NCBI RefSeq assembly: GCF_002848265.1
Contig: NZ_CP025422.1
Location: 496,001 to 560,000, forward strand
DNA: 64,000 nt
Source: Zhihengliuella sp. ISTPL4
GTDB taxonomy: Bacteria; Actinomycetota; Actinomycetes; Actinomycetales; Microbacteriaceae
Reading direction: 5' to 3'
Positions 50,484 through 64,000 of this stretch are shown in pieces. How positions within the stretch are numbered: position 1 is the stretch's first letter; every line of letters begins with the position of its first letter. A program made the position numbers and the translations under genes. The notes beneath the pieces were generated by a model. It ran no database searches. It saw only the letters and a program-made list of their open reading frames with translations, and was not told the origin of the DNA.

Positions 50484-52155
50484 ATGGGGACCCGGGTGAC
50501 GCGCGATCTGCGCCTGCTGCCGGTGGCGGTCGGTGCATGGGGTGCGGCCCTGGTCTGCGTGTTCGCGCCGGGAGCGGCGGCGTGGCTGGCGGGTGGCTGC
50601 CTGGCATCCGCGCTCGTGATCGGCGTCATGATCGCGAGCGGGCGTCACGCAGCCGTGGCGGTCAGCGGACTGGTCATCGTGGTCCTCGCGGCGGCGGCAG
50701 CCGTGGCGCTCACCGTGTCCGCGCAGTCGACGAGCCGCGAGACCGTGCGCGGATGGGGTGGCAGAGTCGTCGAAGCGGTCGGTGAGGTGTCGTCCTCGGC
50801 GACCGTGGGGCGGGATGGGCGCCTGTGGATGGAGGTGCAGCTGAGCGGCATCGGTTCGCCGGGCGCCGTGGAGCCGGCTGCCGGTCCGGTGCGCATCGGG
50901 ATCGAGCGCGGTGAGGGGTTCGTCCTCGGTGCGGAGGTGCGAGTGACCGGCGAGAGCGCAGCAACGGACCCGGGGGAGCGGGCGGTGCTCGTCGTCTTCG
51001 TCACTGCGGCAGACGTGGAACGGCCCGCGTCGGGCGTCTTCGGACTCGCTGCCGACCTCCGCCGGTCGTTCGTCGAGCGCGCGACGCGACTCCCGGAACC
51101 CGGTGCGGGACTCCTTCCCGGGCTCGCTGTGGGGGACACCACCGCCGTTCCGGTAGACCTCGACGCCGATATGCGGATGAGCGGCCTCAGCCACCTCACG
51201 GCCGTGTCAGGGGCGAACTGCGCAATCGTCCTCGCCGCGGTGTTCGGAATCGTCGCGCTCTGCGGGGGGGATGCGGGCGCTGCGGGTCCTGCTCGCCGCC
51301 GGCGCGCTGGCGGCCTTCGTGGTGCTCGTGACGCCGGAGCCGAGCGTGGTCCGGGCTGCCGCGATGGCCGCAGCGGGCATGCTGTCGATCCTGCTCGGGC
51401 GTCCGAGCGCGGGGGCTGGAATCCTTGCGCTCAGCGTCACCGCTCTCCTCGTGGCCGACCCCTGGCTCGCATCCACGCCGGGGTTCGCTCTGTCTGCGGT
51501 GGCCGCCGGCGCGCTCATCCTGCTCGCCCCTGCCCTGGCGAACGGGATCGCGCGAGGGGTGCCTCGTCCGCTGGCCCTCGCGATCGCGGTGCCGCTGGCG
51601 GCGCAGCTCGCCTGCGCCCCCGTGATCGCGCTGTTCGCGGAGCAGGTGTCGCTCGTCGCCGTGGTCGCGAACCTCCTCGCCGAGCCGGCCGCTCCGGTCG
51701 CGACGGTGATCGGGCTCCTCGCGTGTCTGGCCGCGCCGCTTCCCGCCGTGGCCGACGTCCTGTCGGCCTCGGCATGGCTGCCGTCAGCCTGGATCGCGAT
51801 GGTGGCTCGGGTCACCGCCGGGCTTCCCGGTGGGCAGGTACTGCTGCCGGCTGGCCTCGGCAGCGCGCTGCTGGTCGCCGTGGTGAGCAGCGCCATCGCC
51901 GTCATCTGCTGTCGCGGACGGTCCCGGTCTCGCGAGCCCGCAGTGACGAGGGGCACGACACGGTCGGGCCGTCTGCTCCGGTCGCGGACCGCGGGCGCGC
52001 TGCTCCCCGTGGTCCGACGCGCAGCGGCGGCGCTCCTCATCGTTGTGGCGGCCGTCGGCGTTTCCCGGGCGGTGCTCGACGGGCCGCTCGCGGCGCTGCT
52101 GACGCCGCAGGGGTGGGTCATCGCTGCGTGCGACCAGTTCTGTAGTGAAACCTAG
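50484..52155 (+). pseudogene. comEC: Broken comEC (DNA uptake channel), frameshifted and cut by an integrated element
   Basis: Reads as ComEC from ATG 50484 through the N-terminal helices, the OB-like domain and the competence core (LSHLTAVSGANCAIV). At a run of seven G (51264-51270) the frame must shift by one base to continue as MRALRVLLAAG and VLVTPEPSVVRAAAMAAAG, after which the membrane helices run on in the new frame. The reading ends near 52140 at GWVIAACD; the next residues, normally VGQGDAVLVR, are replaced by QFCSET and a stop. The metallo-beta-lactamase-like domain is missing from the whole right part of the window. Both defects would abolish function; the frameshift could also be a base-calling error in a homopolymer. 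Confidence 0.92.
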
Positions 52156-52190
52156 CTGTTGTACGCCAAGTGTTGCAGACTGAGTCGTGA

Positions 52191-53699
52191 GTGTTGGGAA
52201 AGGACATCGTGGCAGGATGGCGCGTGCGCTGGGTCGAGCTGAACGCGGGGGGATCTTCTCACAGCGCCGAACTATGGAGTGCTACAGAGCTGATGCGCCG
52301 CGAGCGCGCCGCGGGCATCCGGTTCGGCTCCCCATTCATGACAGACCCGACGGGGATGGCCGACCCGACTTTGACTGCGTACTTCAACAGTCCGCGCTTC
52401 GCACGACTCGCGAAGTCGACCAAACTCGCCTACACGGGCGACTATGTGGTCTTCTTCAATTTCCTGTGGCAGCGAAATGAGCGACGGTGGACCGAAGCCA
52501 CGGTTGGTGATGTTGAAGACTACGAAGACTGGAGGAACCGCGGTCCTAGCAACCCGCGGACGATAGGCGGGTCGAAATGGGCGCGTGAGTTGGCAGCCCT
52601 CAACCGTTTGTATAAATGGGCAGTTCAAGAGCAGGTCCTCGAGACTTCACCGATCCGTACGGTCGCCTCCCGAGGCCGGGATGGGGAGAAGATCGAGGTT
52701 GTTGAGCTCAGCCCAACGAGTCGTCGCGTCGTCGACATGAAGTGGTTAACCCCTCGTCTCGCCGAACGATGGCGAGATGTCGGCCTTAGAGGCCTTTCTC
52801 CCGATGGAAGCGTGAACCCCGCATACCGAGGACGTAACGCTGACCGGAATGCTGCCTTTTTCGATCTGCTGTTCGATTCCGGGCTTCGACTGACGGAAGC
52901 GTCGTCCCTGCTCTCGATGGAGTTACCGACGAGTGACGGTGTCAATCGCATGCGCTGGGGCAGAGTTGCTAAGGCGGCTGCGAAGAATGGTAGCGGCAGG
53001 CCTTTCGCCGTAACAGAGCGCACACTCTCCTCTATTCGTTCTTACGTGGCCACGAGCAGGGATGCCGCGGTGCGGTCAGCCCAGGCGAAGGGCCGCTTCG
53101 ATGACTTGCCAGGCAAGCTTCACGTCCAGCGGATATTGCGGACCGCGAGGGGCACAAGCTTGCAGTGGTGGGATGAATCGAGTCGCGTTGTGCGCACATT
53201 GCCGGTGGACCGAATCGACGTCGAAGAGAGGATGAGACTTTTCTCGACAACGGAGCGTGGCTTGGAGCCTATGTGGCTATGGCTGTCCGAGCGCGGAACC
53301 CCTTTCCAGCCTCACTCTTGGGAAGACGTGTTCTCATCCGGGACTCTTCGATGCCAGCGAGCGCTTGGTGACGAGGCGCCGTTCTGCACACCGCACATGT
53401 TGCGGCATTCGTTCGCTCTCGTGATGCTTGTCGCGCTTCAGCATGCTTACGACGAGAGGTTTGGCCTCACGCCCGAGCAACGGCGGGATTTCGCGATCCT
53501 TTATCGAGATCCGTGGCGAATCGTCAAAGACCTTTTGGGGCACTCCTCTGAGGAGACGACACGCGAGATCTACCTCGCACCCGTGCGGGACGTGCAAGTT
53601 CGCACCCTCCTCGAGAACGGCGTAACCGCAGGAGCCGACTTCTTGCGCGCGCTTGCGGCCGCGGGAGGAAGCGTCCTCGACTTGGCAACTGATGAGTAG
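52191..53699 (+). CDS. Tyrosine recombinase, first of a trio (TnpA-like)
   Basis: 502 residues. C-terminal catalytic domain complete: first arginine in DSGLRLTEAS (about R233), HMLRHSF (about H402 to R405), GHSSEET (about H451) and nucleophile in TREIYLAP (about Y461). The N-terminal part is an SAM-like core-binding domain (LAKSTKLAYTGDYV). GTG 52191 gives the longest protein; GTG 52209 has AAAGG in better ribosome-site position, so it may be the true start. It begins about 50 bases from the comEC junction and overlaps the second recombinase gene by eight bases, the usual arrangement in Tn554-type and recombinase-in-trio elements. Confidence 0.88.
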   Translation: MLGKDIVAGWRVRWVELNAGGSSHSAELWSATELMRRERAAGIRFGSPFMTDPTGMADPTLTAYFNSPRFARLAKSTKLAYTGDYVVFFNFLWQRNERRWTEATVGDVEDYEDWRNRGPSNPRTIGGSKWARELAALNRLYKWAVQEQVLETSPIRTVASRGRDGEKIEVVELSPTSRRVVDMKWLTPRLAERWRDVGLRGLSPDGSVNPAYRGRNADRNAAFFDLLFDSGLRLTEASSLLSMELPTSDGVNRMRWGRVAKAAAKNGSGRPFAVTERTLSSIRSYVATSRDAAVRSAQAKGRFDDLPGKLHVQRILRTARGTSLQWWDESSRVVRTLPVDRIDVEERMRLFSTTERGLEPMWLWLSERGTPFQPHSWEDVFSSGTLRCQRALGDEAPFCTPHMLRHSFALVMLVALQHAYDERFGLTPEQRRDFAILYRDPWRIVKDLLGHSSEETTREIYLAPVRDVQVRTLLENGVTAGADFLRALAAAGGSVLDLATDE

Positions 53700-55410
53700 G
53701 GGACGGCCGGCGGCCTTGCCTGGTATCGGGAGTCATGTTCGACCCGAGAATCTCGAAGGACTTGTAGTGACGCATGTAACTGAGAAGGGAGACGCGAGTG
53801 CGAAATATGACTTCGGGGTTCTTCCATTCTCGGCCGATTTTCGGCAGGAGGTTGCGGAACTCTTCGCGGCGCGCACCTCACCGAGCGGATCGTGGCGCAC
53901 CCTCGATACGAGTTCCGACGGATTCTGGGCCCTCGGATACTTTGCACGATGGCTGGCCGCTAACGGTCATGCACCATCGAGAGTGGGGGAGCTGACTCGG
54001 AGTACCTGGCAGGAGTTCCGCCTGGTAGCCAAGAGCGAGAGCTCGGCGAGCCTGTCCGCTCTGAGACTGGTGCGCATGTTTCTTCGAGATTCCGGTCTGT
54101 TGCATCCCTCGACGAGTGCAGAGGTTTCGCTTCGTATCCCCGCGGCCGCTCCGAAGGAGACCGCTTACAGCGATGAGGAGTTCCGTCGCGTGCGCACCGC
54201 GGCACGGCGCGTCTTCAGGCGAGCCCGAAAGCGCATCATGGAGAACGCAGAACACCTACGCCGTCACAGGCGGGGTGAGTTTCGCGAGGACAGCAACGAC
54301 TATCTACTCGGAGAGGCACTCGAGACCATCGCGGCGACCGGGGATGCCCCGCGCAACTGGCAACACCGCGACCGCCCTGTTGCAGCAGAATACGCGGCTG
54401 TGTTGGGAGGGAACAAGCGCATCAACACCTGGATGCGACTCTACCTTGACGCTTCCGAGATCACAGCGGCACTCATTCTCATCGCGTGTAAGGAAGGCTG
54501 GAACGCCACGTCAATCGACGAACTCGAAGTCCCGACGAGAGTCGACGGCACCCCGCTGGCCGGCGACCACAGCCTCATGAGGGTCGAACTCGAGAAGCGG
54601 CGGCGGCACCAGCGAAATCGCTTCGAGGTGCGCACGCTCCGTGATACCGGCGCTGGTTCTACGGCGCGCCTGCTCACTCACATCCTGGAGATGACCCGAC
54701 CGGCGCGGGAGCTGCTGGCAGCACATGGCGCCGATACTTCGCGACTGCTGATCTCTAGGAAAACACCGGTTACGCCCGACGTGCACGCAGTCTTCTCGGT
54801 AGGCGTGACGAACGAACAGAAACGCATTTTTGTGCACAGCACCGGCGTTTCCTTCAACTTGCGACGGATCCGGAAAACGGTGAACACCCGCCATCTCCGT
54901 CAGCCGAATCAGAATACCCAGGATACGCACGATAGCCAATATGTTGTCCGAGACCCCGAAGTCATTCGCAGGTCAGAGGACACAATCGCGCGAGGCCTTG
55001 AGCGCGCCGTCACTCACGCTTCGGAAGTACTTGCCACAATCTCTGATTTCGACCATGAAAGCGGCGATGAAACACCCACGGCTGAGTGCACCGACATCCT
55101 TCAGAGCCCGTTTTCGCCGTGGGGTGCGCCGTGCACTGCCTCATTTCTCCTTTGTCTTTCATGTGTGAATGCGGTAGTCATGCCAAAACACCTCGGTCGG
55201 CTAGCTCTCCTTCATGAAGCGCTCGCGAATGTGCATGGCGCGATGAGAGAAGAGGCGTGGGATCGCCAATGGGCGGTACATTTCCGGAGACTTGAGTCTT
55301 TGCGGCACGATCATTACACTGATGCTCAATGGGCTCAAGCGCTGCGGTCCGTCACCGATGTTGACCGACGCACCGTGGGGCACCTGCTTGAGGGGAGTTT
55401 GGGCGCATGA
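53692..55410 (+). CDS. Divergent tyrosine recombinase, second of a trio (TnpB-like)
   Basis: 572 residues. The C-terminal half has the arrangement LRRIRKTVNTRHLR (about 390-402) followed by HDSQYVVRDP (about Y417), which fits the box II arginine and nucleophile region of an atypical tyrosine recombinase. The box I region reads ACKEGWNATSID, where the usual arginine is not obvious. A long C-terminal tail follows with cysteines in TAECTDIL, GAPCTASFLLCLSCV, possibly metal-binding. ATG 53692 is assumed; the frame is open further upstream inside the first recombinase gene. Assignment relies partly on its place between two clear recombinases. Confidence 0.72.
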   Translation: MSRGRPAALPGIGSHVRPENLEGLVVTHVTEKGDASAKYDFGVLPFSADFRQEVAELFAARTSPSGSWRTLDTSSDGFWALGYFARWLAANGHAPSRVGELTRSTWQEFRLVAKSESSASLSALRLVRMFLRDSGLLHPSTSAEVSLRIPAAAPKETAYSDEEFRRVRTAARRVFRRARKRIMENAEHLRRHRRGEFREDSNDYLLGEALETIAATGDAPRNWQHRDRPVAAEYAAVLGGNKRINTWMRLYLDASEITAALILIACKEGWNATSIDELEVPTRVDGTPLAGDHSLMRVELEKRRRHQRNRFEVRTLRDTGAGSTARLLTHILEMTRPARELLAAHGADTSRLLISRKTPVTPDVHAVFSVGVTNEQKRIFVHSTGVSFNLRRIRKTVNTRHLRQPNQNTQDTHDSQYVVRDPEVIRRSEDTIARGLERAVTHASEVLATISDFDHESGDETPTAECTDILQSPFSPWGAPCTASFLLCLSCVNAVVMPKHLGRLALLHEALANVHGAMREEAWDRQWAVHFRRLESLRHDHYTDAQWAQALRSVTDVDRRTVGHLLEGSLGA

Positions 55411-57488
55411 TCAACTTCGAACTCATGAATTCCGACCCGCCGAGTGTGTTGCCGTCGCGAACAGATCCCATCTATGACAAAGACAAGGCGCCGTCCAAGC
55501 GTGACAAAATCCCTGAGTTCGGGGCTGCAGTGTGGCCGATTCGGTTCTTCAGTGACAATCCGTCATCGCACGATCTACGAATCAAATGGAACGGATTTCC
55601 CGCAGAATATCGGGAACATTTTCGGCTCGCAACTTGGGCGCTATTCAATCTTCCGATGCCAGCGGAGATTCTTGCGCAGCTCGGAACACGTGTTGTCAGC
55701 AGACTCAGTGCGGGGCGCATCTATCACTCGGCCGTTGATTGGCGGACGCTGGCGAAGTGGATGCGCGCCAACGGAATCGAACACGTCAGGGACCTCGATG
55801 AAGTTGCCTTGACGTCCTACGCAACATACCTTCGAGAAACGCGGCGCCTCGACAGGGGAACCATGGGGAATCACTTCATGGCTATCAACCGGCTCTGGAT
55901 TATCGGTCTTCAAATCCCTGCTCTCGAATTGCGAGAAGCGCCGCCTTGGTTGACCGGCTCAAGCGATGATCTTCTGCCGGAGTCTCGAGGCGAAGCAGGT
56001 GAGAACATTACGGACCCCATCTCGACTCCGACAATCTCCGCGCTTCTGGACGCCGCACTGGCGTTCGTGAACATGGCGGGTCCAATCGTCGATGCAGTCG
56101 TATTGCAGGAGGACATCAAAAAGCATGCTAGTTTACTCCCCGAGCGTGGCGAGTACGGCGCTAACAAGAGGCTCGCCCAGTATGTCGCGGAACTGCGGGA
56201 GTCGGGTTCGCCGATTCCTCTAAAGGAGCATCGGGGACGGCGCATCATCGATGCTCCGTATCTGGCCCTGCAGTCGGGACTGTCTGTAGGCGTCGTGCAA
56301 AATTGGGCGTTAACCAAGTCTGCGCGTGAACTGGCTAGAGCGGCTGGCGAGGTCGTCCACGTCGACCTCGGCGATGGCAAACTCGCCCCGCTGAAAGTAC
56401 CCTTGTCCAGGGTCGTGACCTATCGTCGCCTTCTCGAAACTGCTTGCTTCATCACGATTGCGTACCTCACGGGCATGCGGCCGGGCGAGGTGCTCGCGCT
56501 TGAATCTGGTGTCTTGCATCCTTCCCAGCGAGGTGGATGGATGCTGATTAGGTCGAGAGCCTTCAAACCAGTCCGCGACGATGATGGTAACCATGACAGC
56601 CGAGGGCGCACACGAGCTGCGCCCTGGGTCGCAATCACTCCCGTGGTGCAGGCGATACGCATACTCGAGCGACTAAGTCCACTGAGTGGGCTGCTGTTCC
56701 CATCGAAGCATCATGTCAAGAATGCGGGGCGCTCGACGAGCCCCAACACAATATCCAGAGGCATTCAATTCTTCATCAAGTACGTCAACGCGAGTGGCAA
56801 CCGGCGAATTCCAGACGATCCCCTTGGTCCCGTCAATCCGCTTCGCCTCCGCCGCACGCTAGCGTGGCACATTGCAAATCAACCCGGCGGGCTCGTCGCC
56901 CTTGCCGTGCAGTATGGACACCTGCGTACCGCTATCTCCGAAGGCTACGCCAGTCGCGTGCGCAACGGTATACACGATTTGATAGACTTCGAAACCGCGC
57001 GGTCCATAGCACTACGCCTCAGCGAGATGTCAGAGGCGGCTGATGCTGGTGAAGAGATTTCCGGTCCAGCAGCCTTCAGGCTTGCAACGGCATTGCGCGA
57101 ACGAAACGCTGGATTTCCAGGCCTGGTGACCAGTCAGCGCCAAGCAAGTCTGTTGTTGAGTAATCCGGACCTGACGATTTTTGACAGTGACGACGCTCTA
57201 TTCGTGTGTGCTTTCGACCGTGACACCGCACGATGCTTGAGTGACACTGAGGAAGCATTTGCTCCGCGCATAGATCTGTGTCATCCGAATTGTACAAATA
57301 TTGCTCGTATGGATCGGCATGCAACACGACTGCGCTTGTCCGCAACACGTCTCCGCGGTGATGCGGAAGTGCTACCAGCGCCAGCGGCAGAACGACTTCG
57401 GATTCGCGCGAGCGAACTAGATCAAGTAGCACAAATGCACGATGAACAGCGTCGCGCGATTGGAGAATACGATGACTCCGCCGGATGA
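55407..57488 (+). CDS. Tyrosine recombinase, third of a trio
   Basis: 693 residues. Catalytic residues are visible as AYLTGMRPGEV (about R358), LRLRRTLAWH (about R483), QYGHLRTA (about H505) and SEGYASR (about Y514). The N-terminal segment has a core-binding region (TLAKWMRANGIEHVRDL). The C-terminal ~170 residues contain FVCAFDRDTARCL and DLCHPNCTNIAR, a probable zinc-binding set, then a helical tail. It overlaps the second recombinase by four bases and the next small gene by 17. Confidence 0.85.
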   Translation: MINFELMNSDPPSVLPSRTDPIYDKDKAPSKRDKIPEFGAAVWPIRFFSDNPSSHDLRIKWNGFPAEYREHFRLATWALFNLPMPAEILAQLGTRVVSRLSAGRIYHSAVDWRTLAKWMRANGIEHVRDLDEVALTSYATYLRETRRLDRGTMGNHFMAINRLWIIGLQIPALELREAPPWLTGSSDDLLPESRGEAGENITDPISTPTISALLDAALAFVNMAGPIVDAVVLQEDIKKHASLLPERGEYGANKRLAQYVAELRESGSPIPLKEHRGRRIIDAPYLALQSGLSVGVVQNWALTKSARELARAAGEVVHVDLGDGKLAPLKVPLSRVVTYRRLLETACFITIAYLTGMRPGEVLALESGVLHPSQRGGWMLIRSRAFKPVRDDDGNHDSRGRTRAAPWVAITPVVQAIRILERLSPLSGLLFPSKHHVKNAGRSTSPNTISRGIQFFIKYVNASGNRRIPDDPLGPVNPLRLRRTLAWHIANQPGGLVALAVQYGHLRTAISEGYASRVRNGIHDLIDFETARSIALRLSEMSEAADAGEEISGPAAFRLATALRERNAGFPGLVTSQRQASLLLSNPDLTIFDSDDALFVCAFDRDTARCLSDTEEAFAPRIDLCHPNCTNIARMDRHATRLRLSATRLRGDAEVLPAPAAERLRIRASELDQVAQMHDEQRRAIGEYDDSAG

Positions 57489-57885
57489 GCGTCGGATGAT
57501 TCGCGACGCGATGGACCGTCTGCTGACAGGGAATGTTCTCCGCTCCACTGGCGCACTAACAATCGTGAGCCTCGCCCAGGAAGCTGGAGTCAAGCGCCAT
57601 TTGCTGACGCACCGCCATACAGATCTGAAGGATGAGTTCTACGCCAAGGTTCGGGCGCAGGGCAAGGTGCCGCAAAGTGAAGTCGCACTACGAGACCGCG
57701 TCAAGGCGCACGATGAGTCGCTCGAAGAGCTGCGAACTACAGTAAGGCAACTTCGGTCCGAGAACGAAGCGTTGCGAAGGATGAATAATGTGTTGGCTAT
57801 CGAGAAGGCTGGAGCTGAGGAGGCGCTCAAAGAGGTCCTAGGTGGAGGCGTGACTTCGATTTTCCGAAAAGGCGGCGGGCGGTAA
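57472..57885 (+). CDS. Small coiled-coil accessory protein of the recombinase cluster (TnpC/DUF6262-like)
   Basis: 137 residues: an N-terminal helical, helix-turn-helix-like part (TIVSLAQEAGVKRHLLTHRH, about 31-50) and a coiled coil (about 70-120). This matches the small fourth protein that accompanies Tn554-type recombinases, which helps DNA binding or orientation during transposition. Start ATG 57472 has GGAG eight bases before it. It ends the recombinase operon. Confidence 0.75.
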   Translation: MTPPDERRMIRDAMDRLLTGNVLRSTGALTIVSLAQEAGVKRHLLTHRHTDLKDEFYAKVRAQGKVPQSEVALRDRVKAHDESLEELRTTVRQLRSENEALRRMNNVLAIEKAGAEEALKEVLGGGVTSIFRKGGGR

Positions 57886-58026
57886 GTCGAGAGTCCGTGC
57901 GTCAACCTAGGACGGGGCCCAGAACACGTGTCGGCTGACGACACACCGAGAACCTGAGCCGTTCGTGTAGCGCACACAGATTCGAGAACCATCGGGCATT
58001 CGATTACTTGCCTTGTATGAAAGTTG

Positions 58027-58263
58027 ATGGCCACATCCTACGGCGGGCGAACGTTGCACTCCGGCCTGAAGTGCTACGGCATGGGCACGCTTCGGCTGAA
58101 AGACACCTGCGGCATTCCGCGTTTCGGGAACCACGCAGGCGGCGTGACGCTCAACGGGAAGTTCGACAGCCAGTGGAACGAGCGCTGGTCCACCCCGTCG
58201 TGCTTCGGGAGGGCGTCAAGCGTGGTCACGGCAGTGCCGGTCGAGTCGAGGACGGTCAGCTGA
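58027..58263 (+). CDS. Possible small protein or gene remnant
   Basis: 78 codons (starting MATSYGGRTLHSG, later CGIPRFGNHAGGV and DSQWNERWS) with high third-position GC and more purines in first position than the antisense reading. The antisense frame is also long and shares the same wobble position, so strand choice is uncertain. No clear ribosome site. Two stops interrupt a possible continuation to 58458 in the same frame (reading [15 protein letters not shown]), which would fit a decayed gene. Confidence 0.3.
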   Translation: MATSYGGRTLHSGLKCYGMGTLRLKDTCGIPRFGNHAGGVTLNGKFDSQWNERWSTPSCFGRASSVVTAVPVESRTVS

Positions 58264-58478
58264 GGGAAGACCTGCTGGGCGATGTAGGAGGACTGGCCCA
58301 TCATGCCCGTCGACTATGCCGGCTTCTGGCTCAAGCCGTACGGCTTTCTTGATGCGAACCCGGCCATTGATATCCCGGAGTCCAGTCAGGCGCACGGCCA
58401 CTCGAATGAGGCAGCCGACGGCGGCTGCGGCCAGGGAGCGAACTGCATCTGCGGTTGACGCGAGACGGGCACCGAACC

Positions 58479-58646
58479 TCAGCCGAAGTACTCTTTGCGG
58501 TTGGCGGAGCGAGCGTGACGCTTCCACCCATTCACCGCCGAGCTCTGTGAAGCCCCGGAACCCGTCCGACCGCACTCGCACGTCCAGACGACGCGTGGGC
58601 GTCCTTGGCGATCCTCCCCGCCGCCCACGTCGATGATCTGATGCAT
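58479..58646 (-). CDS. Possible small Cys-containing protein
   Basis: 55 codons reading MHQIIDVGGGEDRQ, then VVWTCECGRTGSG and VNGWKRHARSANRKEYFG. The C-x-C-G motif and charged tail resemble small phage or element proteins. The ribosome site is weak (GGAG about 14 bases upstream). Too short to call firmly. Confidence 0.28.
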   Translation of the reverse strand: MHQIIDVGGGEDRQGRPRVVWTCECGRTGSGASQSSAVNGWKRHARSANRKEYFG

Positions 58647-58759
58647 GACTACAGCATGCTCCGGGATTCGGACATCGCCGGCATCGCACAGTAGCGGTCA
58701 CCTCCTCGAGGGTGGGCCACTAGGCCAGGGACCGCGACATCCCCGGCCTAGTGGTGTGG

Positions 58760-58912
58760 TCACGAGGAGGTCGTGACCCACGGGGCGACGGCCACCGACA
58801 CAGCGGCAACCAACAGCGCGACATCGACGGTCACGACGACCGTCACGATGCTCCGTTTCCTGCCCCGGCGTGTCGGTCGCTGGCCACGACCCTGTCTGCG
58901 TTCTACACTCAT
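58760..58912 (-). CDS. Possible small single-helix membrane protein
   Basis: 50 codons: a very basic start (MSVERRQGRGQRPTRRGRKR) and one hydrophobic segment (SIVTVVVTVDVALLVAAVSV) near the end. This topology is plausible for a small membrane protein; the frame opens further upstream but without a good start. It is unsupported by neighbours. Confidence 0.3.
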   Translation of the reverse strand: MSVERRQGRGQRPTRRGRKRSIVTVVVTVDVALLVAAVSVAVAPWVTTSS

Positions 58913-59130
58913 CTCGTCACAACCTTCCTCATTCCGATGGAGACGAAGACACTGGCCCGCTTCCATGCGACGGAAGCGGGTCTCTCCGTTAAGAGAGAAG
59001 GTACGGGCAGAAGTCCACATTGCGGACCCTCGACACGCCCTCCTTTCGTTACAACAATGAAGACTGAATCACCGCCTGAGCTTCGGAATCTTCGGCGCGC
59101 CTGCTCCGTTCCCGGGTTTGAGGAGATATA

Positions 59131-59147
59131 GGGGTTTCGCCCCTTTT
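59131..59147. terminator. Small hairpin with T-run downstream of the SIR2 gene
   Basis: GGGGTTTCGCCCC followed by TTTT on the plus strand; on the minus strand the same stem is followed by TATAT. It lies about 170 bases beyond the stop of the SIR2 gene and could end its transcript. Confidence 0.4.
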
Positions 59148-59315
59148 CGCTTCCCTTCAGGGATTTTCCGACCGAACTGAAGTGAGCGCTGGTCACCTTG
59201 AATTGCCCATGACGCCTTGGTTTCGACGGCGGTGCCTGTCGCGCGAAGTAGCCGATCTCGGGTCGTGCCGCGCACCTGTGGTTCTTCGATAACCGCCCCG
59301 CGGGGTCAGACGAAT

Positions 59316-60983
59316 TCAGCCTTCGCGTCGTGCCTGCCTCGCACTGCGTCTTTCCCTGCGACGACCTCGCCCAGCCGAAGCCTTCGCGTTCCAGCGGGCG
59401 GCCGTGGGCTGCTTGTTCATCAGGTAGTCGTAGAAGAACACGCCTTTGATCCACTTCGTTGAAGCGTCAATGGTGCCTCCCGAGAAGAGGTTCTGATGAT
59501 CCAGGAGATATGTCTGGAGCTTCGAAGAGTCCACCGTCGCGGGGTCAAGGAACGGGATAGCGAGTAGTGCGTCTCCCGGGGACAGATGGTCCACCAGGCA
59601 GTCGAAGTCTGAATGCTCTGCGAGTAGGCGATGAGCGCGCTCCCCGAAGTAGCCGTTGGGGCGCAGCGTTTGGAGCCCGAGCCGAAGGCGGGCGCGGATG
59701 CCGGGTGCGACGTCCGCGTCTGAGACCAGGTCGCCATTCTCGTCGAGAAGGTTCGCCCCTCGGAGCCACTGGTGAATGGGCGTGTGGGTGCGCTGATGCG
59801 CCAGAGAGGGGAGCACATCCGTCACGATCTGCGGATAGTTTTCGAGCTCGATCTTCGGCTCGAGGACGTCGAGCATCAGGTCGCGACGAGTGAGGCCCGT
59901 CACGCCCTTGTCTTGGAGTCGCTTCGAAACACCGACCCCGATGACGACATCCACCTGGTCGAGGTTCGTGTCGGATTCAAGGTCGGACACGACGACGGTC
60001 TTGGAGGGTTCGCTTGTTCGCGCGAGTTCGTAGACCTCGTGTTTCAAGTGCCGCAGGATCTTCGCGGGAAAGCGTCGATGAAGCTGGCCCAAGACGCGGA
60101 ACGTCGAAAGAAAGTCAGGGGCGGTGATGAGGCGGATGGGGATGCTCGTTTCGTCCAGCGCGAATGTGGACGGTGCGACCGTCGGCTCGGTCGCATCTGG
60201 GTCCCAGTTGAGGAAGATCAGTCGATTCTCAAGCTGATGAATGTTGTCGTTCGTGAGCACGGAGGCGATGCTCGTGATGATGGAGCGAACGTTCGGATCG
60301 CTAAGGGAGTATCCGACGAAGATGACCGGGTGTTCGACGAAGATGGTGAGCAGCTTCGCAGCGAGGTAGGGGTTTCGGGGGCGGAAACGCTCGAAGTCGG
60401 CGGACGTGATGACGAGTGATTCTGGTTGAGCGGCGCTCCCATGGATCTTGTAGATCTCAGCTACGCCCTTGGGGTCTTTGAAGAGAAGTTCGTCCTGTCC
60501 GACGTACGGTACGAAGTCGGGGAAGACGTACTCCAAGATCTCGTCGAAGTTGGTTGTGATGATGCCTTCGATGGTCGCTACACGGAGCGCCTCTAGCTCG
60601 TCGTTGAGTGGTCCGACGTCCGGCAGTCGCGAAGCGATGTCCTTGAGCGACTTGGCGACCTCGTACTTGAACGGAGACTCGCGTCCGGCGGGTGACGGGA
60701 ACGCCGCACGGCTGGCCGCGAATTCTGGCTCGGTCCACCAACGCTCCCGGAGGTCTTCGGCAATGAGAGTTGCAGTCTGCAACGGATCACCGTTCGCGCT
60801 GGAGGAGTAGTACGCGTACGGCTTGCCCGCCAGCCCAGCCATCCGCTCAAGGAGCTGAGCCCAGTTGTCCGACTCGGCGTAGCGGAGGGAGAAGCCGCTG
60901 CCGACGAAGAGGAAGGGTGCACTGGTGAACTGATTGAGGTGGTCGAGTAAACCTGTTCCGAAGGCATCGGTGGAGTCGGTCAT
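59316..60983 (-). CDS. SIR2-family NAD-binding protein, likely defence NADase
   Basis: 555 residues. N-terminal SIR2 fold: cofactor loop FVGSGFS (about 27-32), catalytic asparagine in ITTNFDEIL (N145), histidine in KIHGS (H181), and VGYSLSDPNV (about 223-232). Stand-alone SIR2 proteins in bacteria usually destroy NAD after phage detection (for example the DSR, Thoeris and SIR2-HerA systems). The remaining 320 residues are not recognised; the last 20 are very basic. It has no deacetylase-type zinc cysteines in the core. AAGGA seven bases upstream supports the start. It is divergent, across 120 bases, from the PD-(D/E)XK protein gene, in an integrated element, which suggests a defence role. Confidence 0.85.
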   Translation of the reverse strand: MTDSTDAFGTGLLDHLNQFTSAPFLFVGSGFSLRYAESDNWAQLLERMAGLAGKPYAYYSSSANGDPLQTATLIAEDLRERWWTEPEFAASRAAFPSPAGRESPFKYEVAKSLKDIASRLPDVGPLNDELEALRVATIEGIITTNFDEILEYVFPDFVPYVGQDELLFKDPKGVAEIYKIHGSAAQPESLVITSADFERFRPRNPYLAAKLLTIFVEHPVIFVGYSLSDPNVRSIITSIASVLTNDNIHQLENRLIFLNWDPDATEPTVAPSTFALDETSIPIRLITAPDFLSTFRVLGQLHRRFPAKILRHLKHEVYELARTSEPSKTVVVSDLESDTNLDQVDVVIGVGVSKRLQDKGVTGLTRRDLMLDVLEPKIELENYPQIVTDVLPSLAHQRTHTPIHQWLRGANLLDENGDLVSDADVAPGIRARLRLGLQTLRPNGYFGERAHRLLAEHSDFDCLVDHLSPGDALLAIPFLDPATVDSSKLQTYLLDHQNLFSGGTIDASTKWIKGVFFYDYLMNKQPTAARWNAKASAGRGRRRERRSARQARREG

Positions 60984-61103
60984 CGGCGGATCCTTCCCGT
61001 GTCTAGTGACAGCGTATTGGGCGCAAGGGGAGTGCGCTGTCTTTAGCGCGAACTCCGCCGACCGTAGCTACTTCCGTGCCTGTCCCGCTAGCGCATCGAT
61101 TGG
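60984..61103. promoter_or_regulatory. Divergent promoter region between SIR2 and nuclease-like genes
   Basis: 120 bases between two outward-facing starts. It contains GCGCTGTCTTTAGCGC (61032-61047), a small inverted repeat that could be an operator, and no clear sigma-70 pair. Shared control of both genes is possible. Confidence 0.4.
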
Positions 61104-62537
61104 GTGCGGTTGAATGAACTCGTGAACATCCCCATCCACATCGGAACTTCGTCACCACAAGAATGGGACGCCTACGAGTCGCAGGTGCCGAAGACGCCGC
61201 TTGCAAGTTTGGCGAGACACAGCAATCCGCGTCGCCGACCATCGGTTGCCTCCAGCGCAACCCCGTGGGAAGAGCTAGGGTTTGTCCCGCACTGGGAGGG
61301 AGATGACGCTTCTGAGTGTGTCGTTGCATTCGAACCCCGCATGTTCGCGGACTACAACATCAATCAGCTAGAACGCTTCGTCGAGGGCTCTCGACAGCGA
61401 GGTGAAGTTGCGCTCGTGGTCAGTTCGATGCGTGGTGACGACGACTCCGATGACGACGGCATTCTCAATGTCTTCGGTGCGGGCGGTTCTGAGTACATCG
61501 TCGAGTGGGATACGCAGATCAGCTCTCGACCGCTCGGCTCCAAGAGCCGCATCAGACCAGCTGACATGCTGACTGGGGCAGATAAGGACCTCGCACTCCG
61601 ACTCGTCGACGAGTCACTCGCCTGGCACGCCCTCGAACTGCACGGTCACGATGAGCACACGCCCTTCGGGGTCAAGAAGCATCCCGCGGTCGGTGTTCTC
61701 GAGCCGATCCTCGTCACCGCATTAGGGGAGCCGGTAGTAGCCGCATGGGTTGCGCCCGACCGTGTCGAGCGTCGCTACATCGTTCCGGCCGATATCGACT
61801 GGAAGGTGATTGCCGAGTGGGTACGCGATAAGGCGCTACCCGAGATGAACATTGATGCGGTTCGAAGATTCCGGCCTGAGCAGGCGGTCCCTGACGCACT
61901 GCGAACCGCACGCGAGCTTCGGGTCGCCGCGAGTATCGCTGACCTGGACGCCGAGTACGCTGCCGCGCGGGAGAAGCTCGACGCCGAGCAGGCTGAAGCG
62001 GTGGCGGAAGCATCGGAGGTTCGCGAGCAGCTGCTGTACAGTCAGGGCGCCGATCTCGAGAAGGGTGTTGCTCGCGTGCTACGCGATGCCGGAGTGATGG
62101 TCTCGGAACTCGATAAGATCATCGGCACGCAATCCGCCGACCTGCTCTTGGTTTGGCAGGGCCGTCGTCGCTTGGTGGAAGTGAAGTCGGCCGCTGGAGC
62201 CGCTGGGGAGAACTTTTATAGCCAACTGCGGAAGCACCTTGACGCATGGGCCGCAGCTGGGCGCGAGTCCGTAGAAGGCGGCGCCCTCGTCGTCAGCCAC
62301 AGCCTGAAGGTGCCGCCCATGCGGCGAGATCGAAAGGTGTACACCCGACCGGAGTTCGTCCGGTCTCTAGAGCACCCCGTTGTTTCTGCGCTGGTCCTTT
62401 TCGATGCATGGCGTGAAGGTGACTGGGACGGGGTCCGGGAGATGTTCTTCCCTGCGACCTCGACTTCGGTTGCGCAGAGCGAGACGGAGCGGAAGCGTCG
62501 AGGGTGGCGGTGGCATCGTTCGGATTCCGGCGCCTGA
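61104..62537 (+). CDS. Protein with C-terminal PD-(D/E)XK nuclease-like domain
   Basis: 477 residues in three parts: an unrecognised N-terminal region of about 270 residues, a coiled coil (about 275-312), and a C-terminal domain with the PD-(D/E)XK pattern: E319 in GADLEKGV, D346 in TQSADLLLV, and E359-V-K361 in RRLVEVKSA. This fold is used by restriction and repair nucleases. No membrane segment. The start is uncertain: GTG 61104 gives the longest reading, GTG 61122 is an alternative, and neither has a strong ribosome site. It faces away from the SIR2 gene; a two-gene defence module is the simplest reading but unproved. Confidence 0.75.
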   Translation: MRLNELVNIPIHIGTSSPQEWDAYESQVPKTPLASLARHSNPRRRPSVASSATPWEELGFVPHWEGDDASECVVAFEPRMFADYNINQLERFVEGSRQRGEVALVVSSMRGDDDSDDDGILNVFGAGGSEYIVEWDTQISSRPLGSKSRIRPADMLTGADKDLALRLVDESLAWHALELHGHDEHTPFGVKKHPAVGVLEPILVTALGEPVVAAWVAPDRVERRYIVPADIDWKVIAEWVRDKALPEMNIDAVRRFRPEQAVPDALRTARELRVAASIADLDAEYAAAREKLDAEQAEAVAEASEVREQLLYSQGADLEKGVARVLRDAGVMVSELDKIIGTQSADLLLVWQGRRRLVEVKSAAGAAGENFYSQLRKHLDAWAAAGRESVEGGALVVSHSLKVPPMRRDRKVYTRPEFVRSLEHPVVSALVLFDAWREGDWDGVREMFFPATSTSVAQSETERKRRGWRWHRSDSGA

Positions 62538-62870
62538 GCACACCTAGCGGAGATTAGGGCATACGAGCCTCGGCCGGACGTCCAAGTTGGCTATGCCTTA
62601 GGCGCCATGGATCGTCGTACACGAAATCATATACGATCCGATCTTCATCCCGCAATGACTGTTTTCGCAGGCATCGCTTGCAAGCCCAGGTTGCGTCCAG
62701 AGGCGCGTGATCCAGTCACGATTGGCTGTCGGTCCGCGAATCTAGCGTTCTCACGCTCCGGGACGCGGTGGTCGTGCCGTCAAGAAATACACGGAACATC
62801 GGCACGGCACGGCTGACGTGAGCCGCGCGAGGGAAGGTGGGCTTCGTGGGGTGTCCGCTATCGTGACCGC
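62538..62870. other. Intergenic region between nuclease-like and GIY-YIG genes
   Basis: 333 bases with no convincing gene. CGTGCCG and its complement (near 62774-62780 and 62801-62810) could form a hairpin; ATCATATACGATCC near 62627 is AT-richer and could hold promoter elements. Nothing firmer can be said. Confidence 0.5.
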
Positions 62871-63632
62871 ATGGGCTTCGTCTATGTCCTCCTCAACTGC
62901 GACTCCAGTCACCAGGTGAAGATCGGCATGACGCGTGGCGCCCCAGAAAAGCGGGCAAAGCAACTTCGTTCGACCGGCGTCGCTCGCCCGTTCGTTGTGC
63001 TCTGGGCTCAACGCGCCGAGGACCCCGAGGAGCTCGAGCGGGCAGCGCACGACGAGCTCGCCGCATTTCGCGTGGACCCGAAGAGGGAGTTCTTCCGGAT
63101 CACCCCCCAGCACGCAATCGAAACACTCATGCGCTTAGCTGCTGACGCTGGTATTCCGGTCATGCACTCCGCCACGGACCGCGACATCACTGAAGAGCTA
63201 CGCCGGCAGTGGGGTCAGCTCATCGATCCAGCGCTCGTTTATGTCCATCTCACCCATTCGCCAAGCGGGACCGTGCTGACCGAGCGCCGCGGTGTGGGGG
63301 CCAATCAGACGATTATCAAGAGGGACCTGGGCATCATCATCTCGGACGACGATACTCCGGTGTTCAGCAATGCTCTCACGGTGGACGAAGCGGTCACGCT
63401 GTTCAGTGAGCTGGGTCTCGCTACATTGATGGCGACCACCAGCCTGATTGCCGACGAGGTCATTCAGGTTGTCGGCGCCGCGCAGACAGCTGGCGCTGAC
63501 GTTGCGGAGATCGAGCAACTGATCACCGGCATGTTGGCATCCGGTCAGGAGCTCGCAGAGATGCTTGCCGCGATTGCATCGGCATACAGACAGGCCGAAG
63601 AACGTGAGCACCGCGATAGCCTCGACGGATGA
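62871..63632 (+). CDS. GIY-YIG nuclease-like protein (T5orf172/MUG113 type) with unknown C-terminal part
   Basis: 253 residues. The N-terminal ~95 residues match the MUG113/T5orf172 variant of the GIY-YIG fold: GFVYVLLN, QVKIGMTRGAPEKRAKQLRST, then AHDELAAFRVDPKREFFRI. In this branch the first motif is GxVYVL and the second KIGxT, followed by an arginine and a late glutamate. The C-terminal 150 residues are unrecognised and contain a helical segment (about 180-240). ATG 62871 has no clear ribosome site. The stop overlaps the next gene as ATGA, so the two are coupled. Confidence 0.78.
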   Translation: MGFVYVLLNCDSSHQVKIGMTRGAPEKRAKQLRSTGVARPFVVLWAQRAEDPEELERAAHDELAAFRVDPKREFFRITPQHAIETLMRLAADAGIPVMHSATDRDITEELRRQWGQLIDPALVYVHLTHSPSGTVLTERRGVGANQTIIKRDLGIIISDDDTPVFSNALTVDEAVTLFSELGLATLMATTSLIADEVIQVVGAAQTAGADVAEIEQLITGMLASGQELAEMLAAIASAYRQAEEREHRDSLDG

Positions 63633-64000
63633 TTGACCCCGGACTCGCCGCAGTTATCGCGGCATGCGTCTCGCTGCTGCTAGGTCTTGCGAGCATCTGG
63701 CGTTCTGCGTTCGACTCCCGAAGGGCAGACCGCCGGGAGCGCCAGCAGCGCCGTGCTGAGGCATACGTCAAGGTGCTACGCATAGTTGAGACGCGTGGGC
63801 TCGCAGTCCAAGACGAGATGTACAACTACACCGAAACCGGTGACACCGCATACGATGTCTACGCTCCGACGCTTCCGAAGCGAGACATCAGCATGCCGGA
63901 TCGAAACGACAGAGCTGAAGCCCGAGCCCTCCTCGCGGCGTTCGGAACGGTCGCAACACGCCAGGCGTTCGAGAAGTGGCTTGCGGTAGTCGTCGAATGG
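63629..64000 (+). CDS. Membrane-anchored protein, cut by the window edge
   Basis: The first 124 codons are seen; the frame is open to the window end. One N-terminal membrane helix (IDPGLAAVIAACVSLLLGLA, about 2-23), then a charged stretch with Arg/Glu-rich helices (about 28-50). The four-base overlap with the GIY-YIG gene suggests joint translation. Not recognised; small single-helix proteins with cytoplasmic tails are common in defence operons as membrane effectors, but that is speculation here. Confidence 0.6.
   Translation, partial: MIDPGLAAVIAACVSLLLGLASIWRSAFDSRRADRRERQQRRAEAYVKVLRIVETRGLAVQDEMYNYTETGDTAYDVYAPTLPKRDISMPDRNDRAEARALLAAFGTVATRQAFEKWLAVVVEW

Follow-up and report, generated by a model that had tools for sequence, protein, structure and literature searches.

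Several described bacterial defence systems share a SIR2 NADase region. These include ThsA of Thoeris, in which the N and H residues of that region are recognisable, the DSR1 and DSR2 proteins, and the SIR2-HerA systems, named GAO_19 and Nezha (PMC11514479, PMC12322248), in which a SIR2 gene adjoins a second defence-like gene. We analysed a 64,000-nucleotide stretch of Zhihengliuella sp. ISTPL4 (positions 496,001 to 560,000 of contig NZ_CP025422.1; hereafter the window), in which a gene for a SIR2-domain protein lies head-to-head with a gene for a PD-(D/E)XK-like nuclease. An earlier note on this DNA had proposed the two as one undescribed defence module. Both genes are cargo of an 18.8-kb mobile element that split comEC, and no adjacency of the two was found elsewhere in the sampled genomes, so that they are most likely separate defence genes and not one new system.

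The SIR2 protein was compared with each of the described systems. It shares with ThsA the SIR2 NADase region and its N and H residues, but the significant match was confined to that region (E-value, E, 4.5e-7) and no TIR match, as in Thoeris ThsB, was found among the element proteins scanned; membership of Thoeris was therefore rejected. The SIR2 NADase region is likewise shared with DSR1 and DSR2, whose profiles and chains of approximately 1000–1275 amino acids contrast with the 555 amino acids found here. Matches to them were seen only within the SIR2 region, and the NCBIfam Dsr1 model scored 16 bits against a cut-off of 1400, and DSR membership was rejected on length and score. The locus resembles SIR2-HerA in that the SIR2 gene adjoins a second defence-like gene, however, the partner here is a PD-(D/E)XK-like nuclease with no HerA or other ATPase match in Pfam or PADLOC, and SIR2-HerA was rejected for want of that partner. 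The closest relative is the PADLOC candidate PDC-S25, which the SIR2 protein matches over nearly its full length, C-terminal part included; the sole difference seen is an arginine-rich C-terminal tail of approximately 30 residues, longer than in nine relatives (alignment A2). The pair was not found as a named system, as the note had supposed, although the SIR2 gene by itself is already catalogued.

Results

The gene pair

The two genes are arranged as follows.

59316..60983, minus strand: SIR2-domain protein, PADLOC candidate PDC-S25 (555 amino acids, ATG start; profile matches, alignment, model)
60984..61103, no strand: 120-bp gap between the divergent genes
61104..62537, plus strand: putative PD-(D/E)XK nuclease (477 amino acids, GTG start; conserved motif, model)

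The divergent arrangement across 120 bases was seen as described before. The GTG at 61104 is the earliest possible start of the nuclease and the true start may lie later. Both reading frames are open across the full family length, and their guanine-plus-cytosine (GC) contents are similar (60.8% and 62.1%), at a level common to the whole element. The whole region, sought at near identity in plasmids, gave no match.

Co-occurrence of the two families

Among 299 genomes of the family, four matched the nuclease (two of them over nearly the whole length) and 16 the SIR2 query (six strongly); the 394 class genomes gave nine and 26, respectively, with a strong SIR2 match in the source genome only. 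In both samples the source genome was the sole one to appear in both lists. Leaving the source aside, the nuclease was matched in none of the five genomes that carry a strong SIR2 relative, and the SIR2 query in none of the seven that carry a strong nuclease relative (one nuclease being broken). A nuclease match was present in 37 of the fetched loci (scoring at least 100 bits in 34) and a SIR2 match of any strength in 103. Genome-search loci had approximately 1.5 kb of flank, plasmid loci 5 kb and contig loci up to 10 kb, less where a contig ended. Both genes were present only in L001 and L013, which are both the source locus, and none of the 18-kb stretches around seven of these relatives (L146–L152) contained the two together. 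One of 16 further nuclease genomes (L142) also has a SIR2 relative, which is in two pieces and lies on another contig (SIR2 on C21, nuclease on C33). When compared by eye, none of 40 listed SIR2 plasmid records (of 188) was among the 23 nuclease records. The proposal of a single recurrent module was rejected on these counts, with no shared locus outside the source genome among the genomes and loci sampled.

The SIR2 protein

The Pfam family SIR2_2 matches residues 141–262 of the SIR2 protein (E 1.1e-26), and the PADLOC profile PDC-S25 (PDLC04968) matches residues 12–524 over profile positions 14–515 of 517 (E 3.7e-145); this gene alone is therefore an already catalogued PADLOC candidate. It is also matched by phrog_2695 of PHROGs (E 1.8e-96). 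A full-text literature search returned no paper naming PDC-S25. Residues G28, G30, N145, D147 and H181 are identical in all 35 rows of alignment A4 (residue numbers checked), in agreement with the intact cofactor loop, N145 and H181 previously described. The catalytic region aligns with solved SIR2 proteins including ThsA, KomC and DSR2, and N145 and H181 correspond by motif (TTN-D, KIHG) to DSR2 N133 and H171, either of which abolishes NADase activity when changed (PMC11290490). With its PDC-S25 match and conserved active site the protein looks like a probable defence NADase, as had been proposed, and by homology it would hydrolyse NAD+. The structural model (mean predicted local distance difference test, pLDDT, 83.9; predicted template modelling score, pTM, 0.60) is alpha/beta up to approximately residue 290 and mostly helical from approximately 300 to 555. 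The C-terminal part, which had been given as 320 residues of no recognised kind, is thus nearer 260 residues and lies inside the PDC-S25 family match.

SIR2 matches were found in 188 plasmid records (in four of which a single place spans 80% or more of the query), at 59 loci in viral contigs and in eight phage records, none of which covered 80% of the query. Searching the fetched loci with the A2 family profile gave 69 open reading frames (ORFs) at E 1e-20 or lower, in which the source gene appears twice. Of these, 44 cover 500 or more of the 530 profile positions, which indicates that the SIR2 architecture is stable without this nuclease partner; the others are shorter, partly since only the SIR2 part matches. 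On plasmids, SIR2 relatives are found close to recombinase or transposase genes (L007, L008, L009) or a type I restriction system (L006). A distant second SIR2-like match was also present in the source genome (G000:C1:29420-29713, L029; E 5.3e-4), within a 1047-amino-acid open frame.

The nuclease

The 477-amino-acid protein gave no Pfam match above the cut-off and none in NCBIfam, PADLOC or PHROGs and, judged by this member, its family is uncatalogued in these four libraries. An AlphaFold2 model (mean pLDDT 83.0, pTM 0.54) placed an N-terminal alpha/beta part at residues 1–256, a long helix at 269–311 and a core at 316–398. The pTM values of both models are modest, leaving the arrangement of parts unsure in each. 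The core runs helix 316–328, strands 332–335, 347–351 and 354–362, helix 370–384 and strand 392–398; this helix-strand-strand-strand-helix-strand sequence is the core order of PD-(D/E)XK enzymes. D346 lies immediately ahead of strand 347–351, and E359 and K361 lie on strand 354–362. D346 and E359 do not vary in alignments A1 (15 rows) or A5 (16 rows), each of which includes the window nuclease, and K361 is present in every row of A1 and in all but one row of A5. The four-residue motif previously listed therefore stands for D346, E359 and K361, which are conserved and placed as expected, whereas E319, on the first core helix of the model, varies between E, V, A and K across relatives; it is no conserved motif residue, and a catalytic role for it was rejected. 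On model and motif together the protein looks like a PD-(D/E)XK nuclease that would cleave DNA, which agrees with the original assignment. The A5 exception at K361 is a relative with R in its place (L133:7320-8768), at a locus without the HEPN-like gene described below.

The nearest described enzymes are Mrr-type nucleases (PF04471), with which the protein shares the core order and the D-X12-E-X-K spacing. Mrr_cat matched weakly in 4 of 15 family members (best E 0.0032); three of these matches were seen with coordinates, and all three cover the motif region and lie below the Pfam cut-off. Unlike Mrr-type enzymes, the window nuclease has no Mrr_cat match and an N-terminal part that matches nothing. 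Against solved structures, the best match of the family profile (E 0.95) was unrelated, and the single sequence reached a best E of 0.14.

Nuclease relatives were found in 23 plasmid records (20 covering at least 80% of the query), and a scan of genome contigs with two peptide patterns gave 16 loci, 15 titled actinobacteria and one an Armatimonadota metagenome-assembled genome. In viral contigs 50 pattern matches yielded no relative, and phage records gave no match.

Neighbours of the nuclease relatives

Neighbouring genes were called with our own script based on GC by codon position, so the calls are approximate; in five loci (L067, L003, L002, L013, L143) it failed to call the nuclease. Clustering of neighbours mostly gave ORFs overlapping the anchor gene, and only clusters outside the anchor were used. 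In 5 of the 16 genome-contig loci, a gene of 253–254 amino acids overlaps the nuclease start by four bases.

L128:2037-2798: HEPN-like gene ahead of the nuclease, R-NEVG-H motif
L130:9228-9989: the same
L131:2630-3391: the same
L132:9243-10007: the same
L134:9246-10007: the same

The R-NEVG-H stretch, which we take to be HEPN-like, is invariant across the five, and Pfam, PADLOC and PHROGs give the gene neither a name nor a HEPN call. Four of the proteins are 77–86% identical to that of L131, and this likeness may reflect one recent acquisition. The gene was missing in the other 11 contig loci (L138 is cut by the contig end and the L143 nuclease is broken) and in all eight plasmid nuclease loci fetched, and none of that kind was found in the window. 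In a tree rooted at the midpoint for drawing only, the window nuclease, on a long branch, groups with a 10-row clade that includes all five HEPN-linked nucleases (support 100/96).

For seven nuclease loci the larger neighbours were picked by eye and scanned, and three gave strong defence matches, to GajA and GajB (L139), PDC-S53 and ZacC (L129), and PDC-S28 (L132). The other four were not counted: L142 gave nothing, L133 and L065 gave weak matches (E 0.001 and 8e-5), and a neighbour in L128 matched a CARF model (E 2e-8), yet was assigned a LuxR-type domain by Pfam.

The mobile element

The element borders were drawn from relatives with an uninterrupted comEC. The left part of comEC and the part before holA share one locus in 8 of 11 same-genus loci examined, the remaining three having no match to the left part, and translated L155 reads without a break through AACDVGQGDA. 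In the source genome comEC (window 50484-52155; resuming at approximately G000:C1:566979) is split at the CDVGQGDA codons, which leaves this host competence gene broken. To the left of the element, Pfam matches to comEC were seen in two reading frames, 50484-52145 and 51271-52155. GAC is present at both junctions, the element ends are imperfect inverted repeats (TTCTGTAGTGA and TTCTGTACTGA), and the GC content is 61% inside against 70% and 68% outside. Besides the gene pair, the following features were assigned.

52135..64000, no strand: window part of the element inside comEC (18,844 bp in total, running to G000:C1:566978, 6,978 bases past the window)
52191..53699, plus strand: tyrosine recombinase (Phage_integrase and Phage_int_SAM_1, both above cut-off)
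53653..55410, plus strand: 585-amino-acid protein between two recombinases, a recombinase by place only (no Pfam match)
55407..57488, plus strand: probable tyrosine recombinase (Phage_integrase, E 5.7e-4, below cut-off)
57442..57885, plus strand: small DUF6262-like protein after the recombinases (E 4.3e-5, below cut-off)
62871..63632, plus strand: GIY-YIG (T5orf172/MUG113) protein of 253 residues, the N-terminal 109 of them matching PADLOC PDC-S57

Matches to the 585-amino-acid protein were found in six other genomes of 249. The place of the DUF6262-like protein after the recombinases is presumably that of a TnpC-like protein, and the element may resemble the Tn554-like TnpABC arrangement of two tyrosine recombinases, a small TnpC-like protein and site-specific insertion; set against that arrangement, it has one clear and one sub-cut-off recombinase, a sub-cut-off DUF6262 match and one clean insertion site. 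Further cargo comprises an AAA protein that partially matches AriA, GajA and Old, as well as a helix-turn-helix protein, a DUF4365 protein and a metallophosphoesterase. The last of these (L144:4946-6124; G000:C1:562946-564124) ends in a VbhA-antitoxin-like tail (E 8.8e-11), and its gene overlaps one of 126 amino acids, which is an unusual pairing.

Discussion

We favour the reading, at a probability of roughly 0.72, that the SIR2 protein and the nuclease are two independent single-gene defence proteins that a single mobile element carries next to each other. The tyrosine-recombinase module would have inserted the 18.8-kb element into comEC. The SIR2 protein most likely works alone, its helical C-terminal part possibly sensing a phage product and releasing the N-terminal SIR2 NADase, which would hydrolyse NAD+ so that the infected cell stops (abortive infection). 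In the nuclease, the N-terminal alpha/beta part, joined via the long helix, probably selects the target, and the C-terminal PD-(D/E)XK domain would cut invading DNA.

Several points weigh against this reading. Both families are rare in the samples, so their joint absence has limited power and speaks more strongly against an obligate pair than against an occasional one. The class sample is without any strong SIR2 relative apart from the source, the genome-search loci had short flanks (approximately 1.5 kb), the contig scan rested on two patterns and 16 loci, and the SIR2 plasmid comparison covered 40 of 188 records. The loci are partly redundant, L036 and L039 being the same gene fetched twice and L010 and L135 having identical sequences. 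One other genome holds both families, though apart, the literature search turned up no paper testing the PDC-S25-type SIR2 family, and the 120-bp divergent arrangement could permit shared regulation in this one strain.

Two alternatives concern the nuclease alone and are compatible with two independent genes. The nuclease may derive from another system of two genes, with a HEPN-like protein as its partner, and be here an orphan that lost this partner or now acts alone, which we consider only tentatively: the overlapping R-NEVG-H gene at five of the 16 loci and the grouping of the window protein with the clade of those nucleases argue for such an origin, whereas the 11 contig and eight plasmid loci without the gene, the likeness of the partners, the long branch of the window row and the lack of a name for the partner in any library searched argue against it. 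It is unlikely, though consistent with the many plasmid relatives, some of them near ParA, dnaE or recombinase genes, and with the absence of a PADLOC match, that the nuclease serves DNA processing or the maintenance of plasmids or elements and not defence, given the three of seven scanned loci at which relatives lie beside Gabija-like GajA/GajB, PDC-S53 and ZacC, or PDC-S28.

That the pair is a two-gene module newly assembled in this lineage, with the nuclease or its N-terminal part sensing phage DNA, the SIR2 protein acting as effector and the 120-bp promoter region shared, is very improbable, since the closeness of the divergent genes, their fully open frames, conserved active sites and similar GC contents are set against the lack of recurrence outside the source genome in the samples, the separate positions in the one other genome with both, SIR2 relatives of the same length with other neighbours, further element genes that are also separate and defence-like, and a GC content common to the whole element.

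Reading the locus as two independent genes tells a chance neighbourhood apart from a system, and avoids a false new defence module. PDC-S25 gains a member whose active site is conserved and whose mobile element has clear borders. The locus also draws attention to an unmodelled family of nucleases, which at some other loci has defence genes beside it; this family, with its occasional HEPN-like partner, most merits further study. We suggest, as a conjecture we hold at less than even odds, that it is an undescribed actinobacterial defence family, translationally coupled in some of its members to a HEPN-like protein that may sense or restrain while the nuclease cuts. Should these nucleases prove to act in defence, the catalogue of actinobacterial defence would grow accordingly.

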